From Acholoe squamosa (Eukaryota > Annelida > Polychaeta > Phyllodocida > Polynoidae), in NCBI GenBank assembly GCA_949317995.1, contig OX439040.1, positions 60,546,089-60,610,088 of the forward strand: a stretch of DNA of 64,000 bases, in the 5' to 3' direction. The notes under the pieces are model-generated. The model saw only the letters and a program-made list of their open reading frames with translations, was not told the DNA's origin and searched no databases. The position numbers and the translations under genes were made by a program. Of this stretch, positions 22,376 to 29,290 are shown one piece after another; positions within the stretch are counted from its first letter, which is position 1; each line of letters opens with the position of its first letter.

Positions 22376-22905
22376 CACTGAAAACCTACGTGAACCTAAA
22401 CTCGTCAATACTGACGAGTTCAGGTCCTCAGGTTGACAATACCTAAATCTACAGCTTTAGATCCTCATGGGATAGTCATAGATGACGTCATAAAGTCGTC
22501 ACTATGGCCACCCTTTAACCCTTTATAGTAGCACTAGCACTAGCCATAAGAGAGTGTCATTATCCAAATAATCCATCTTCTTTTCTACATCTCTCCGAAA
22601 ACATCCCCATCTTTTTTTATAAGAATGTTGTATCAAATGATATTTATCTTCCCCTTTTCATGAAAGAGTATACAATAAGACTAATGTATATATATATATT
22701 GAGCCGTATACACCCAAGGGATCACCAAACTTTAATATATTACAGAAATGTATAGTGGGGCCCTCATGTGGTATATAGACAAACTAATGGTAAAGCCAAG
22801 GTGGTCAATGTGACGACTTAGGGTAGTCATAGAGGCCTGGCGACTGTCTGACGACCCTAAACTCGTCACATATGATAACCTTCCCAACGTGGCGTGTTTT
22901 CAGTG
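22376..22905. mobile_element. CACTGAAAAC MITE (530 bp, TA flanks) just upstream of the LINE
   Basis: Ends CACTGAAAACCTACGTG and CACGCCACGTTG on the other side (GTTTTCAGTG at 22896-22905), with TA at 22374-22375 and 22906-22907. Subterminal words such as AGGTCCTCAGGTTGAC match the element at 2863-3187. The interior is not palindromic, so this is a longer relative. It contains a short TA tract and no ORF. Confidence 0.75.
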
Positions 22906-22907
22906 TA

Positions 22908-23285
22908 AATAAAGCAAAGATGTACCGCTCCAAAGTCTACCCAGTGGTTACTTACGCTGGGAAGTTTATATTGCCCAGCATATAGTAATGGCGGCCATCG
23001 AGTAGAGACGTGTGCGAGCGGGCGCTCTCCCATTTCTCCCCAACGGAAGATATGTATTACTCTCATATCGTTCAACAAAGGATATAAAGAATGGAAGCAC
23101 ATATCTAGGGTGAGGCCTAATGAAAATTCGCTACGTATACTTGGAAAACTGAGTCTGGCTGATTGAGCTATATGGACCGTAGCCGGTGAAGTCAATCAGT
23201 ACATATATATATACAGCGTGTCAAGCTTGACTGAATAGGGGTCAATCACCGCGCACTGTGTCCCTGTCGCTGTCAATTTGTAAAC
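22908..23285 (+). promoter_or_regulatory. Presumed LINE 5' UTR / internal promoter region
   Basis: About 380 bp upstream of ORF1 with higher CpG content than the flanks (for example GGCGGCCATCGAG near 22991 and ACCGCGCACTG near 23248). LINEs usually initiate transcription inside their 5' UTR. The exact start and any core promoter elements cannot be read from this copy. The ORF1 start sits in a favourable context (AAACATGG). Confidence 0.4.
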
Positions 23286-25019
23286 ATGGAAGGCATACTA
23301 GATAAAGACGAGGTTAGGAAAGTAATATCTGAAATATCCAAACCAAAGGCCACCAGGGCTGCCACTACACCTGATGGGATGGTAATGACCCAGCAAAAAG
23401 TTGGGAGTGTTCTGGAATATCTGGTAAATGAGTCCCAAGCATTAACACAGGCGGTACAATGGAGGAACGATGACCTTGTTGACATCAATAAGTCTACTGA
23501 AGCCCTGAAGCTTGAACTTAGCAGTATGCAATCCAAAATGAATCAAATGGAGAAACAGATTAGGCTTAATAAGGGCAATATTGCTGAGAATCAGGAGCAG
23601 ATATGTATCCTTGACAATGCTCTAAAGCGAAGGAACTTATTAGTAGAGGGGCTGAAATTTCATCAAGGTGAGAAAACAAAAGACGTTGCCTATGCCTTAA
23701 TTACCAGTATAATTCCAGACTTTGACTATTACCTCATAGACTACGCATATAGACAGGGCACCCCTGGTAGGAGTGATAGAAATATGATTATAGTGTTCGT
23801 CAAAGGAGAAATTAGGGATATAATCCTATCAAAGAAAAGCGACTTACTGAAGACCAGAGACTATTCACAAGTGTTCATCTCAGAGGACTGTAACGTTGTG
23901 ATTAAAAAACAGAGAGCTGAAGCTAGCGCTATAGCCCGAATGGGGCTGGACGCGGGACTAGATATAAAGCCTAGAGGTCGAGGTGTATCATACAATGGCA
24001 GATATTACCCGCATCATGCACTAGGTGAATTGCCTCCTGAGTTAAGACTCTCCAATACAAGGACAGTGGTTACTGATACATATATTGGATACCACAGCGA
24101 ATTGGCTACTCTGTCGAATTTTTTTCCCTGCTCTATCACTACCAATGGTCTGGTCTTTAAGAGTGTGGAGCATGCCTTCTGCTATAGAAAAGCAATCTTT
24201 GCAGGCAGACCGGACAAAGCTGAACGTATTTTAGATGCTGAAACAGCCTATGGGGCCAAGAAATTAGGGAAATTTGACTGCCTAGGATGGTCAGATAGAG
24301 AGGAAGACGAGCTACTCGAACTGAACATATTAAAGTATGAGCAAGACCATGATCTCCTGGAAATGCTATTATGTACAGGAAATAGAAAATTGCTGGAATG
24401 TACATCCTCAATGTATTGGGGAACAGCTGCCAATCTCCACTCGTATGTGGTAAAAACTGGTAAATTCAAAGGTAGAAATAGAGGTGGCGTTGTCCTAATG
24501 CAGGCTAGGAGGCAGCTGAGGGAAAAGTACACTCCATATGTAGGATCTACTACTGATGAAACAAAAGGGCTAGTCAAGCAAGACATCCCCATCACTCCTG
24601 TGCCACCAGACGATGAAATTGAACAGCAACAGTCTGCAGCAGCCCCAGGTATAACTCCTGACCCAACACTTATCCCTGATCAAGCCGCAACACCATTGCC
24701 ACAAAGACAACACCGTCAGCAGGAACAACAACAACACCAACAAGGCCAACAGCAACTGCAACATGAGCAACAACAACAGCAACAACAGACAACAACATCT
24801 CCAAAACCTGTAATAGCCATGAAGGACCTTCAGGCTGCTCATGGACCAAATACTCCTACAAGAAACGCTGCAAACATAGTGAGCACTGCCTCAGCTGACC
24901 AAACCAAGAAAATGAGATATCAACACAAAAAGAAACATGATGCACCCAGAATAGAAAGAAGCCATGAATCGAATGCCATGCAAAAAATGATGGGTTTTTT
25001 CTCCCCTAAAAAGAAATAG
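23286..25019 (+). CDS. LINE ORF1 protein with NADAR domain
   Basis: 577 aa nucleic-acid-binding ORF1 protein, expected to coat the element RNA in a cytoplasmic RNP. Residues about 45-115 are heptad-rich (coiled coil, probably trimeric). Residues 116-250 resemble the L1-type RRM plus C-terminal domain, starting with RNLLVEGL and including a basic IKKQRAEA helix and YNGRYYP. Residues about 265-415 are a complete NADAR domain: LSNFFP (276-281), FKSVEHAFCYRKA (291-303), YGAKKLGK (322-329), a KYEQ...LL..TG..K.L.E helix series, WGT (378-380) and a closing GRNRGGVVLMQAR. NADAR proteins hydrolyse N-glycosidic bonds, and some remove ADP-ribose from guanine in DNA. Residues 440-505 are Q-rich. The tail is basic and ends in MQKMMGFF plus SPKKK, resembling a PIP box. 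The start was chosen for its Kozak context and because the coiled coil follows. The NADAR assignment is strong; its role in the element is inference. Confidence 0.88.
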   Translation: MEGILDKDEVRKVISEISKPKATRAATTPDGMVMTQQKVGSVLEYLVNESQALTQAVQWRNDDLVDINKSTEALKLELSSMQSKMNQMEKQIRLNKGNIAENQEQICILDNALKRRNLLVEGLKFHQGEKTKDVAYALITSIIPDFDYYLIDYAYRQGTPGRSDRNMIIVFVKGEIRDIILSKKSDLLKTRDYSQVFISEDCNVVIKKQRAEASAIARMGLDAGLDIKPRGRGVSYNGRYYPHHALGELPPELRLSNTRTVVTDTYIGYHSELATLSNFFPCSITTNGLVFKSVEHAFCYRKAIFAGRPDKAERILDAETAYGAKKLGKFDCLGWSDREEDELLELNILKYEQDHDLLEMLLCTGNRKLLECTSSMYWGTAANLHSYVVKTGKFKGRNRGGVVLMQARRQLREKYTPYVGSTTDETKGLVKQDIPITPVPPDDEIEQQQSAAAPGITPDPTLIPDQAATPLPQRQHRQQEQQQHQQGQQQLQHEQQQQQQQTTTSPKPVIAMKDLQAAHGPNTPTRNAANIVSTASADQTKKMRYQHKKKHDAPRIERSHESNAMQKMMGFFSPKKK

Positions 25020-25674
25020 TGTATTAAAAACAATTAATAAACTGTGAATGTATGATTCGTATTTACTAATAAAATCCTTTTTTTCACCTCAAGTGATAGA
25101 TCAGGCACGGCACTGTTGGCTGACTATACACATTATGTTATGCTGGTAAGGCATACCTAAGAGGTTATGGAATAATGGATTGTCTACGTCTCAGTCAATT
25201 ATGATTGTATCAGAGTACATGTATCATCAACCACACCGCGTCCAAATTTAGCTACCGCTAGTGTATTACCTACAGCGACTCCTACCCTCAGGACGCTGTT
25301 AGTAACCAATGGGGCTATGACCTACTAAAACTTGAACAGCTGATTACTATACCCCAAATGCTGTATACTCTAACATGTACATAGCGTTTTGCCCCTCTTA
25401 CTGTTGTCTCATGTTTTCTCACTATACATATTTAACTTGATATCTTGATATCCTTATTATAATTTTGAATTGACATATATCATGTTAATTAATTAAAGAC
25501 TAAGAATATACATATATCATGTTGATTGTAATAATTGGACCAGGAGAGCGCCAGCTGATCCCCTTTTTCTATGATGACTGCCATACTTGAGAAATGCTTT
25601 TTCATATCAGGTATCATTCCTTTTCACCCTCATTCTCACCTGCATTTAATTGGTAAAAATCGTATAAAATATAT
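25020..25674 (+). other. 655-nt inter-ORF region of the LINE
   Basis: There is no ORF of note, and the two flanking ORFs are in different frames (ORF2 is +1 relative to ORF1). Two AATAAA hexamers (25036-25041 and 25068-25073) follow the ORF1 stop within 60 nt. A direct repeat of CATATATCATGTT occurs near 25474 and 25512. The spacer is long for a LINE, so ORF2 is unlikely to be reached by simple stop-start coupling. Confidence 0.6.
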
Positions 25675-28494
25675 ATGATTCTCCTACACGAATTAACCCC
25701 TATGAAGGGGCTAAAAATAATCTGTACCAACACTAGATCAATGTTTAAGAAAAGAGCTGATGTATTTAAATTAGTAACAGGAGCTGATATAACGGGAATA
25801 GTAGAAACCTGGCTTTCCCCATCTGTGTTAGATGCTGACTTACATGTACCAGGCTATCAATATGTCCGGTTGGATAGATTTCCTTTTAGAGAAAAGTCTG
25901 CGGGTGGTGTCATGTTATACTTGAGAGATCATTATATTGCGTGCCTAGACCATAATTCATCTTTTATAACAGAAAACTATGAAATCCTTTGTGTGGATGT
26001 AGAAATTAGTGTCGTAAAATATAAAGTTTTTGTGTGTTATAGACCACCAGACTGCAATGATCTTAAATCAATATATGCCAAACTTGGAGAATTGAAAAGT
26101 ACGGTAACCAAAAACAGAAAATTAATTATTATGGGTGATTTTAATGTAAATCTATTTGACAAAAAAGATGTAAATGATTCTTCTGTCGATGATTTCTGTA
26201 CTGAAAACAACCTTTTTCAACTGATTAATGTTGTCACTCGACCAAGATCTGGGACACTGTTAGATCATATTTATACCAACGTTCATAATGCCTCTACTTA
26301 TGGAACACTGGATTACCATATCTCTGATCATAGCCCAATTTTCTTAGTAATTAAATGTGAGCGACATAAAATAAAGAAGAAAAGGGTTAAAGCTAGGTCA
26401 TATAGAAATTATGACTTTTTAACCTTAAAAAATGCCCTAGTAAACTATAACTGGGAAGAAGTATTGTTGCAAGATGACCCAAATGATATGTGGAAAAGCA
26501 TTTTTAAGGTGATAAATAATGTTCTGGATGAAATGTGCCCTCTTAGAACGATAATTATACCTGAGTATACACCATCATGGTTAACTGAAGATATATTAGA
26601 CTTAATGAAAGTAAGAGATGGTTTATATAGGACAGCAAAGAATTCGATGAGTGAAGATGACTGGAGAATAGCCAACTTTTATAAGCATAGAGTTCAAACC
26701 GAAATATTTAAAAATAAAAAGAAAGAAATGTCAGATTTATTAGAATACAGGAAAAATGACCCTGCCAAATACTGGGAGGTGATTAAAAAGGTGCTACCCA
26801 ATAAGACAGGTGCTACATTGATTAAACTCAGAAATAATACAACAAATCTAGTTATTCCTCCCGAAAATTGTGCTGAATATATAAATAGTTTTTTCACTGG
26901 TATTGGAGAAAAATTAGCTAATGCACTCCCACCTGGTGATAGAGATGAAAATCTAGCTATCCCATATGGTACTATAGTAGATGAAACTAATCTTCTCTTT
27001 GAGCTGTCCTATATAGACTTCATCAAACTGGTCAAATCAATAGATATTAAGAAACCCTCAGCAATAACACATTGTAAGTCTTTTGTTATTAAGGATTCCT
27101 TATTTGCTATTCCAGATGTCTTCAGATCACTGTATAATAAATGTTTAACATCGGCCACTTTCCCTGATGACTGGAAACGAGCCACTGTCATACCCTTACC
27201 TAAAAAAGCAAACTCTATGAATGTGGAAGACCTTAGACCGATTAGTCTATTGCCTATTATGGGAAAACTACTTGAAAAGATTGTATGTAACAGATTACAA
27301 TTATATATGGAGAGACAAGAATTGCTGTGTCCTACTCAGCATGGTTATAGGAAAGGTCGTTCTACTCAAACAGCTATTACTGAACATCTGAAAACAATTA
27401 TTGATAATTATATTATAAATAAGCCTACTTATTGTCTATACATCGATTTCAAAAAAACTTTTGACACAGTCTCACATCCAAAATTACTCCAAAAATTACA
27501 TGCTCTAGGACTTAACAATAAGACATGTGATTTTTTCAAAAATTACTTATCAAATCGACAGCAGTGTACCTTAGCTAATGATATTGTTTCAACACTGAAA
27601 CCCATTACATATGGGGTACCTCAGGGTTCAGTTTTGGGTCCAGTATTGTTTTCCATTTACATTAATTCATTAGCTAAAGCAGTTGACTGTAAAATTACAC
27701 TATATGCAGATGATGCGGTTGTATCGGTGGACTCACCTTATATAATGAACCAGGTCATTCAGAAGATTGTATCATGGTGCCTTAACAATACCCTGACTAT
27801 TAATGCACAAAAGACCAAATGGATGTCTTTTAATACGAACCCCAATCATAGAACTCAATTCCTAATGAACCATGTTATTCTTGAAAAGGTGGACAATTTT
27901 TCCTACCTAGGCTTATTAATGGATACTGAGATGAAATTTGTAAAACACAGAGAAAATACTATGCGAACTATCAGACACAGGATTTTCCAAATGGGACGAG
28001 TGAGATGTCTGTTGGATGAAAATGCCTCTCTAACTGTTTTCAAATCTATGATATTACCTATATTTGATTATTGTGACTATATATGGGATCGTGATTATAG
28101 AGGAGAAAATAGAGATCTTCAAATGTTACAGAATAGAGTCTTAAGAATGGTATATAAAGTTAAACTAGAAGAAAATCCTGTTATGACCACAATACAGATA
28201 CAAGAAAGGAGCAATTGTTCAGAACTTTGTGTTAGACGAGACCTACATCTATTATCTTATGGTTTCATGTTGACCCAGAATATAAATCTTGTGGATAGTA
28301 GAAATATAGCTACACGATACCATCAGGGTAAAAGATTGTTAGTCCCACATTGCCTGAAACCAATTGTACTAAGAAGCGCCTACTACAGAGCCATATTAAG
28401 GTGGAATCAACTAAAACCAGAATATACTGTTATTAATAACTTCTATGAATTTAAAAATAGTGTTAGTAAAGTCTACCCAAATTGCTTTATATAA
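25675..28494 (+). CDS. LINE ORF2: APE-type endonuclease and reverse transcriptase
   Basis: 939 aa enzyme for target-primed reverse transcription: the endonuclease nicks chromosomal DNA and the RT copies the element RNA from the nick. The endonuclease (about 11-228) has TNTRS (18-22), E44 in VETW, YRPP (122-125), GDFN with D155, LLDHIY (195-200) and ISDHSP (216-221). The RT (about 490-760) has PISLLP, QHGYRKGRST, IDFKKTFD with catalytic D591, GVPQGSVLGP (647-656) and YADD (677-680). The C-terminal part holds a helical region with LQNRVLRM but no RNase H and no obvious zinc knuckle. All catalytic residues needed for EN and RT activity are present. The usual Ala of the motif AFD is Thr here (KKTFD), a mild oddity. 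The second Met (25702) immediately precedes the endonuclease core and could be the true start. Confidence 0.93.
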   Translation: MILLHELTPMKGLKIICTNTRSMFKKRADVFKLVTGADITGIVETWLSPSVLDADLHVPGYQYVRLDRFPFREKSAGGVMLYLRDHYIACLDHNSSFITENYEILCVDVEISVVKYKVFVCYRPPDCNDLKSIYAKLGELKSTVTKNRKLIIMGDFNVNLFDKKDVNDSSVDDFCTENNLFQLINVVTRPRSGTLLDHIYTNVHNASTYGTLDYHISDHSPIFLVIKCERHKIKKKRVKARSYRNYDFLTLKNALVNYNWEEVLLQDDPNDMWKSIFKVINNVLDEMCPLRTIIIPEYTPSWLTEDILDLMKVRDGLYRTAKNSMSEDDWRIANFYKHRVQTEIFKNKKKEMSDLLEYRKNDPAKYWEVIKKVLPNKTGATLIKLRNNTTNLVIPPENCAEYINSFFTGIGEKLANALPPGDRDENLAIPYGTIVDETNLLFELSYIDFIKLVKSIDIKKPSAITHCKSFVIKDSLFAIPDVFRSLYNKCLTSATFPDDWKRATVIPLPKKANSMNVEDLRPISLLPIMGKLLEKIVCNRLQLYMERQELLCPTQHGYRKGRSTQTAITEHLKTIIDNYIINKPTYCLYIDFKKTFDTVSHPKLLQKLHALGLNNKTCDFFKNYLSNRQQCTLANDIVSTLKPITYGVPQGSVLGPVLFSIYINSLAKAVDCKITLYADDAVVSVDSPYIMNQVIQKIVSWCLNNTLTINAQKTKWMSFNTNPNHRTQFLMNHVILEKVDNFSYLGLLMDTEMKFVKHRENTMRTIRHRIFQMGRVRCLLDENASLTVFKSMILPIFDYCDYIWDRDYRGENRDLQMLQNRVLRMVYKVKLEENPVMTTIQIQERSNCSELCVRRDLHLLSYGFMLTQNINLVDSRNIATRYHQGKRLLVPHCLKPIVLRSAYYRAILRWNQLKPEYTVINNFYEFKNSVSKVYPNCFI

Positions 28495-28796
28495 ACTAAG
28501 TATATATATCAGACCTATGATACTATATTTCCATATTCATCTCATCTCATTATCATCACTATTAAAAGCATCAGATTCTTGTTACTTAGGGTAGGTCACA
28601 ACTATAAAACCCTAGTAGGTTAAGTGGAAAAGACTATGTAATATGACTGCTATTATTGTTAATCAAAATACGTCCATTGAATTGAATTAAGCTATATTGT
28701 GGGTCCTAGCGTAAGCACTACAATGCGTAGGTGCTAGGTTAAACATCTTACATTTATTATGTACCTTGTTTTTGCCCAATAAACGACTTCAAAAAA
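28495..28796 (+). terminator. LINE 3' UTR with poly(A) signal and possible stem-loop
   Basis: AATAAA at 28779-28784 lies 12 nt before the satellite junction. CCTAGC and GCTAGG near 28707 and 28734 can pair around a ~22-nt loop, with AGCAC/GTGCT as a competing stem. Related LINE clades use a 3' hairpin for RT recognition, so this is a candidate recognition element. Confidence 0.45.
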
Positions 28797-29290
28797 GATA
28801 AAGGCATTTGTTTCAAACATTCACATTGCCCAACAGATGAAGGCATTAGCTTCAGACATTTACATTGCCCAGCAGAGAAAGGTATTTGCTTCAAACGTTC
28901 ACATTGCCCAACAGATAAAGGCATTAGCTTCAAACATTTACATTGCCCAGCAGATAAAGGCATTTGCTTCAAACGTTCACATTGCCCAACAGATGAAGGC
29001 ATTTGCTTCAAACATTTACATTGCCCAGCAGATAAAGGCATTTGCTTCAAACATTTACATTGCCCAGCAGATAAAGGCATTTGCTTCAAACATTCAAATT
29101 GCCCAACAGATAAAGGCATTTGCTTCAAACATTTACATTGCCCAGCAGATAAAGGCATTTGCTTCAAACAATTACATTGCCCAGCAGATAAAGGCATTTG
29201 CTTCAAACAGTTACATTGCCCAACAGATAAAGGCATTTGCCTCAAACCTTTACATTGGCCAGCAGATAAAGGTATTTGCTTCAAACCTTT
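28797..29290. repeat. 39-bp minisatellite, 12 full units plus a partial unit
   Basis: Units start at 28797, 28836, 28875, 28914 and every 39 bp to 29265. The unit begins GATAAAGGCATTTGCTTCAA and ends TTGCCCAGCA. Because 39 is a multiple of 3, both strands are open in one frame and would read 13-residue repeats (for example IKAFASNIYIAQQ), but no start, splice or composition evidence supports translation. Identity between units is about 90%. The array abuts the LINE 3' end exactly. Confidence 0.9.

Follow-up and report, generated by a model that had tools for sequence, protein, structure and literature searches.

NADAR domains, also those of eukaryotes, are reported to free guanine of ADP-ribose (PMC11543638). 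NADARs characterised from E. coli and phages retain activity and differ in specificity, the role of NADAR in animals being stated as unclear (PMC11125620). As for retrotransposons, NADAR has been described in the Gypsy Pol of Ectocarpus, and several Tx1 LINE families of the oyster gave 'divergent hits' in ORF1, a role in RNA processing being considered possible (PMC12477816). The first-pass annotation of the locus analysed here regarded NADAR in a LINE ORF1 as no standard architecture, a statement that has to be corrected since the same account notes the oyster Tx1 NADAR ORF1s in one sentence (PMC12477816). No other printed account of NADAR in retrotransposons was found in a search that covered few subscription papers and no preprints.

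The locus lies in a stretch of 64,000 nucleotides from the annelid Acholoe squamosa, hereafter the window, and its features are collected in Table 1. The window carries a non-LTR retrotransposon, as judged from an ORF2 with endonuclease (EN) and reverse transcriptase (RT) and from dispersed copies with unrelated flanks (12 of the 12 examined, that is, the window and L084-L094), all of which share the 5′ end at 22988. In the same 12 copies the element starts with ATGGCGGCCATC (22988-22999), which we take to resemble a YY1 site at the transcription start; a YY1 site in this place is a feature of human L1. The 3′ end was placed provisionally at about 28794 by sequence reading only, after AATAAA..CAAAAAAG and before a 39-bp minisatellite, and no clear target-site duplication was seen by eye, this end being provisional and adjoining the repeat. 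The minisatellite (12.7 copies, 28796-29290) directly follows the presumed 3′ end, and just before the 5′ end, at 22965-22984, there is a 20-mer that resembles its unit; the element looks as if it had inserted into the array. The 11 other copies of the window's element have other flanks. ORF1 is open from the ATG at 23286 to the stop at 25017-25019, and ORF2 matched RVT_1 (residues 509-747, 139 bits) and Exo_endo_phos (residues 24-219, 34.1 bits, cut-off 24.5), so that the open ORF1 frame and the EN-RT ORF2 first claimed for this element were both recovered (577 and 939 aa). No same-strand ORF of at least 60 aa lies between the two in the window's element. A DNA search of the source genome (1.48 Gb, 63 contigs) with 22700-24900 as query, in which the best 40 of 1073 candidates were scored, listed at least 47 matches of 74-98% identity, the window itself aside.

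Table 1. Features of the NADAR-bearing LINE element (positions of the window) and groups of related loci
Feature	Position	Strand	Remarks
LINE element	22988..28794	+	5′ end exact, 3′ end provisional
5′ untranslated region	22988..23285	+	opens with ATGGCGGCCATC
ORF1, 577 aa	23286..25019	+	coiled coil, RRM/CTD-like part, NADAR, Q-rich tail
Coiled-coil stretch, residues ~41-120	23406..23645	+	weak matches to coiled-coil Pfam models
RRM/CTD-like part, residues ~113-255	23622..24050	+	weak 2yko match
NADAR domain, residues 274-412	24105..24521	+	PF08719, 73.2 bits
E295	24168..24170	+	E43 (P. nicotianae NADAR) / E88 (E. coli C7 NADAR), alignment to 8bau
K302	24189..24191	+	K50/K95, alignment to 8bau
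E371	24396..24398	+	E125, YbiA-type glutamate; D171 in E. coli C7 NADAR
ORF1 tail, residues 413-577	24522..25016	+	Q-rich, relaxed; internal control for selection
ORF2, 939 aa	25675..28494	+	endonuclease + reverse transcriptase; open frame
Group A			window and ten loci: L009, L010, L012, L016-L018, L025-L028
Group B			L013, L014, L020-L024; ORF1 with NADAR and SGNH-like tail
Group C			L011, L015, L019; RT 21-23% identical to the window's; L1-like

The N-terminal part of ORF1 had been annotated as a coiled coil plus an RRM/CTD. The former had weak matches to coiled-coil models, and the latter found weak matches as well: a profile of 23 LINE and non-LINE sequences (A3) matched human L1 ORF1p (2yko, chain 11-171) at E 1.1e-4, against 0.039 for a profile built from just 10 N-terminal parts (A5), which matched over the coil only and ranked 2yko behind several unrelated coiled coils. 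Of the 27 Pfam families that matched these 10 parts, 25 were listed, and Transposase_22 was not among them. The domain that follows matched PF08719 at E 3.8e-20 with 73.2 bits (cut-off 35.1) over positions 11-163 of the 163 of the profile, and lies inside the span of 24075-24530 where the first-pass annotation had placed a NADAR. The nearest solved structures by sequence were the NADARs 8bau (E 5.1e-9) and YbiA 2b3w (5.2e-6), which the 23-sequence profile reached at 3.6e-38 and 1.1e-30. When aligned to 8bau, the window domain keeps the equivalents of E43, K50, K75 (K325), G78, W89 (W335), E125 and W133, and three P. nicotianae pocket positions are changed (R79 to K, D86 to C and R93 to E); residue roles follow PMC11543638, with the 8bau chain numbers mapped by us onto the numbering of that paper. 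The pocket is altered at these three places and retains its catalytic residues E295, K302 and E371. A glutamate at E125 marks the YbiA subfamily, whereas DarT1-linked NADARs carry an aspartate there (PMC11543638). From its sequence, we judge the window domain to be a true YbiA-type NADAR with its catalytic residues kept.

Selection on the domain was followed in a codon comparison of 18 loci; 16 were copies of the window's family, ranked by DNA similarity over 22700-24900 and not by NADAR score, and L003 and L005 gave no match. ORF1 was free of stops and frameshifts in the aligned span of 7 of these 16 copies. In the nine diverged copies (dS > 0.2), which are non-independent and include the near-duplicates L091 and L093 with the same counts, dN/dS of the NADAR domain ranged from 0.016 to 0.076 (median 0.044), similar to that of ORF1 residues 1-255 (0.014-0.080, median 0.053) and five times lower than that of the tail, residues 413-577 (0.18-0.45, median 0.217). 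In seven diverged copies, 125 of 154 NADAR columns were identical to the window; for the N-terminal part the count was 182 of 253, and for the tail 30 of 100. The seven closer copies gave NADAR dN/dS values of 0.03-0.18, except for L084 (0.77), which has two stops, one frameshift and just seven NADAR changes. Other families were compared within themselves, dS between families being saturated and pN alone comparable: pN/pS was 0.083 in NADAR and 0.091 in the N-terminal part of a family with a 463-aa ORF1 (six copies), and 0.18 and 0.36, respectively, in group C (eight copies). Single pairs, with 5-13 changes each, yielded dN/dS values of 0.11 and 0 in group B and of 0.32 and 0.18 in group C. 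These results indicate that the NADAR domain is under strong purifying selection.

A six-frame PF08719 search of the genome produced 3224 first-look candidates, of which the best 150 were scored, a ranking that favours intact domains; among these, all 150 exceeded the cut-off and 143 had no stop inside the match. The LINE loci looked at comprised 20 with flanks, 18 ORF1 stretches and six short ones (L003-L008, four of them among the 20). Together with copies from the DNA search, they provided 52 distinct near-complete LINE NADAR ORFs (57 including duplicate loci), fragments in L003, L005, L085, L087 and L094 and two host genes being left out; 38 of the 52 came from the score-ranked list that favours intact domains and 14, the window among them, from the DNA-ranked list. 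Clustering of their domains at 40% identity gave 6 clusters, at 50% 11 and at 60% 14. E295, E371 and W335 were kept in 52/52. At K302, 42 ORFs had K and 10 had R; in vitro, an E. coli NADAR with the change K95R remains able to hydrolyse guanine-ADP-ribose (PMC11543638). At K325, 46 had K and 6 had M, and G328 was L in 9 of the 52. The methionine at this K75/K115 position belongs to one family (L065-L070); in the E. coli C7 NADAR the K75/K115 residue is needed for antitoxin action and not for catalysis (PMC11543638).

When the ORF2s were compared, nine of the ten group A loci were 28-31% identical to the window's over 503-962 residues, the ORF2s of L010 and L012 extending beyond the fetched stretch, and L026 matched in two pieces (31 and 26%). 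Group B has RTs 24-26% identical to the window's, an ORF2 of 1167 aa in two of its seven loci with shorter frames elsewhere, and ORF1 proteins that share 91-98% identity with the L023 one. Human L1 ORF2p matched group C at 5.8e-68, group B at 2.7e-26 and the window ORF2 at 2.1e-18. The RT tree set group C beside a poplar protein (96/89) and group A in a clade of 16 rows (100/99), and joined group B to P0065 on long branches, so that this join may be false. The window ORF2 is not L1/Tx1-like, the tree separating it from L019 and P0068. By name, group A may be CR1/L2/Jockey, in line with the presumably CR1/L2/Jockey-like motif GVPQGSVLGPVLF, and group C may be Tx1. NADAR ORF1s thus recur on at least three ORF2 lineages of one genome, one of them L1-like, and the recurrence of NADAR with an EN-RT ORF2 that the first-pass annotation had proposed to look for is borne out by these lineages and by the 14 clusters at 60%. 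That annotation would have given way if the domain had no significant NADAR match, or if it were unique to one copy and degenerate in relatives; the strong match, the recurrence and the purifying selection (median dN/dS 0.044) speak against both.

Protein databases added few relatives. Residues 255-420 alone found none among 252 candidates at E 0.001, and a search with the ORF1 alignment found two, P0072 and P0073, among the 7999 scored candidates that shared most words. P0072, an ORF1 of 437 aa, combines a coiled coil and an RRM-like part with NADAR (hhalign with the N-terminal profile, 96.8%). P0073, a 677-aa protein that is not a LINE product, has its NADAR near the C-terminal end and is presumably, by resemblance, a virus-like protein with an OTU-like stretch. 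ORF2 has relatives of 51-57% (P0001-P0003), and a search of viral contigs with ORF2 returned 4 stretches with no relative among them.

Several NADAR elements have esterase-like neighbours. In group B (L023:1259-3529, + strand; L078), the NADAR of ORF1 is followed by what looks by eye like an SGNH esterase tail (IIGNSNARG ... DKIH), on which Pfam gave SASA only, at E 0.072. Reading by eye also revealed one or two SGNH/GDSL-like ORFs between ORF1 and ORF2 in L009, L010, L012 and L016-L018 of group A. These mostly keep the GGFND block and have Q, R or K, not Ser, after the block-I Asp; the best PF13472 E-value of the intervening ORFs was 3.7e-5, none passing the cut-off. The ORF found in this place in L027 matched NarE best (0.0011, below the cut-off).

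How the domain came to so many elements was approached with NADAR trees, which are poorly resolved and have long branches. Two of the 150 scored PF08719 matches look like stand-alone host NADAR genes, L001:1486-2151 (-) and L002:1336-2076 (-), the former with up to 58% identity to NADARs of Paenibacillus; both fell in a clade (99/99) with bacterial NADARs, rows that had been picked by likeness to L001, and on sequence grounds a horizontal transfer of these two genes is possible. A history in which one capture, and not several, passed from one LINE lineage to another as entire ORF1s or as domains were exchanged is plausible, falling just short of an even chance in our judgement, and would concern origin and not function. 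One clade of all LINE NADARs was not rejected (p-AU 0.103), nor was group A with C (0.074), and a clade that unites group C and both host genes was weakly rejected (0.0365). The domain of the LINEs may or may not stem from the host, as blastp identity does not separate the host genes from the LINE NADARs. Group A NADARs fall into subclades, L009/L010/L012/L017/L018/L080 (77/95), L025-L027 (97/93) and window/L077/L079 (100/99), that match RT subclades where both were sampled, which suggests long co-inheritance and agrees with a single capture, as does the ORF1 exchange described between LINE lineages (PMC4120745). On the other hand, the domain of the L1-like group C stands apart from A and B in the free, poorly resolved tree, and the group B setting differs, with no RRM-like part by eye and the SGNH-like tail behind NADAR.

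With regard to function, ORF1p would coat the RNA of the element and travel with it to the target site, where the tethered NADAR would most likely cut N-glycosidic ADP-ribose from guanines of element RNA, cDNA or nicked target DNA; its removal would keep reverse transcription and strand completion unblocked. This mechanism is proposed because NADARs are reported to de-ADP-ribosylate guanine (PMC11543638) and the RRM of L1 ORF1 binds nucleic acid and works as a chaperone (PMC4120745). Guanine-N2 ADP-ribosylation of DNA has been reported in six edible clams (PMC11209040), and the LINEs with NADAR known from print belong to a bivalve as well. That ORF1p strips guanine ADP-ribose from the RNA, cDNA or target DNA of the element is, to our mind, the leading explanation at even odds, in which we infer activity, substrate and benefit alike. 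It is weakened because three P. nicotianae pocket positions differ and the probably RNA-binding part found weak matches, and also because NADARs can act on small molecules and the riboflavin N-glycosidase model TIGR02464 was narrowly missed by the window domain (68.5 against 73.7 bits). The wider proposal, that hosts hold retroelements in check through ADP-ribosylation of guanines in their RNA or cDNA and that the ORF1 NADARs of many LINE lineages are counter-defence erasers, is doubtful at this stage; if true, it would be an animal counterpart of the bacterial and phage DarT-NADAR conflict. Whether LINEs erase a host-placed mark on nucleic acid becomes testable with these NADAR ORF1s, and a hydrolase tied to ORF1 and kept by selection in many families offers a practical way to ask if ADP-ribose serves animals as a mark on foreign or selfish nucleic acid.

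Instead of nucleic acid, the domain might act on PARP-marked RNP proteins (ORF1p or ORF2p) or on an ADP-ribosylated or N-glycosidic small molecule, which we hold to be unlikely. Bacterial and plant NADARs have also been described as N-glycosidases of riboflavin intermediates, with a range said to be open (PMC11125620). As a YbiA-type NADAR, the window domain would fit such a substrate, but its score stays below the TIGR02464 cut-off, and the linkage to ORF1 in many families would rather point to nucleic acid. To our knowledge, animals make no riboflavin, which counts against the small-molecule reading. It is quite improbable, too, that NADAR helps ORF1p to package RNA simply by binding nucleotides or RNA, its catalysis being dispensable: the pocket does vary at K325 and G328 (M in 6/52 and L in 9/52), the SGNH-like ORF of several group A elements seems by eye to lack its catalytic serine, and CR1 and L2 ORF1s are structurally diverse (PMC4120745), but the catalytic glutamates are present in 52/52 and the lysine is always basic, and mere binding might not need these. 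As to a host NADAR gene caught by chance beside one element and now decaying, this is exceedingly improbable, since, although the genome has the stand-alone genes L001 and L002 and the window domain is about equally near to these (24-25% by blastp) and to several other LINE NADARs (21-32%), its dN/dS is 0.02-0.08 in diverged copies, ORF1 is intact in 7/16 aligned spans, and the domain occurs in many families and lineages. A chance match or lone capture is ruled out by score, copy number, selection and recurrence.

Compared with described systems, the window domain shares with YbiA (2b3w) and the P. nicotianae NADAR (8bau) the PF08719 family and the seven equivalents listed above, and differs from them at the R79, D86 and R93 equivalents and in that it sits behind a LINE ORF1 N-terminal part, whereas those structures were deposited as single-domain proteins. 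The likeness to DarT antitoxins drawn by the first-pass annotation extends to the E88 and K95 equivalents of DarT1-NADAR toxin-antitoxin pairs and ends at the D171 position, where E371 is a glutamate instead of the DarT1-type aspartate; there is no adjacent DarT, the neighbours of NADAR being the ORF1 tail and ORF2, in a mobile element and not an operon. In comparison with Type II LINE ORF1s such as human L1 ORF1p, which the N-terminal part weakly resembles through 2yko, the window ORF1 adds NADAR and a Q-rich tail and showed no Transposase_22 match. Esterase ORF1s of CR1/L2/RTEX LINEs (ZfL2-1; PMC3905857) likewise carry an enzyme domain, which NADAR replaces here or, in group B, accompanies as an SGNH-like tail. 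The closest likeness, a YbiA-family NADAR in a retrotransposon protein, is with the Crassostrea gigas Tx1 ORF1s and the Ectocarpus Gypsy Pol (PMC12477816); the window element differs from the oyster ones in its ORF2, given its weaker human L1 ORF2p match than that of group C. The available part of that account has Tx1 as its sole LINE lineage and holds no selection test or active-site count (PMC12477816). Beyond what we found in print, the present analysis adds further LINE lineages, selection, an active-site count and a NADAR-esterase fusion, the latter seen by eye. With NADAR, a further enzyme class joins the ORF1 types described so far, and one genome keeps it on at least three LINE lineages.
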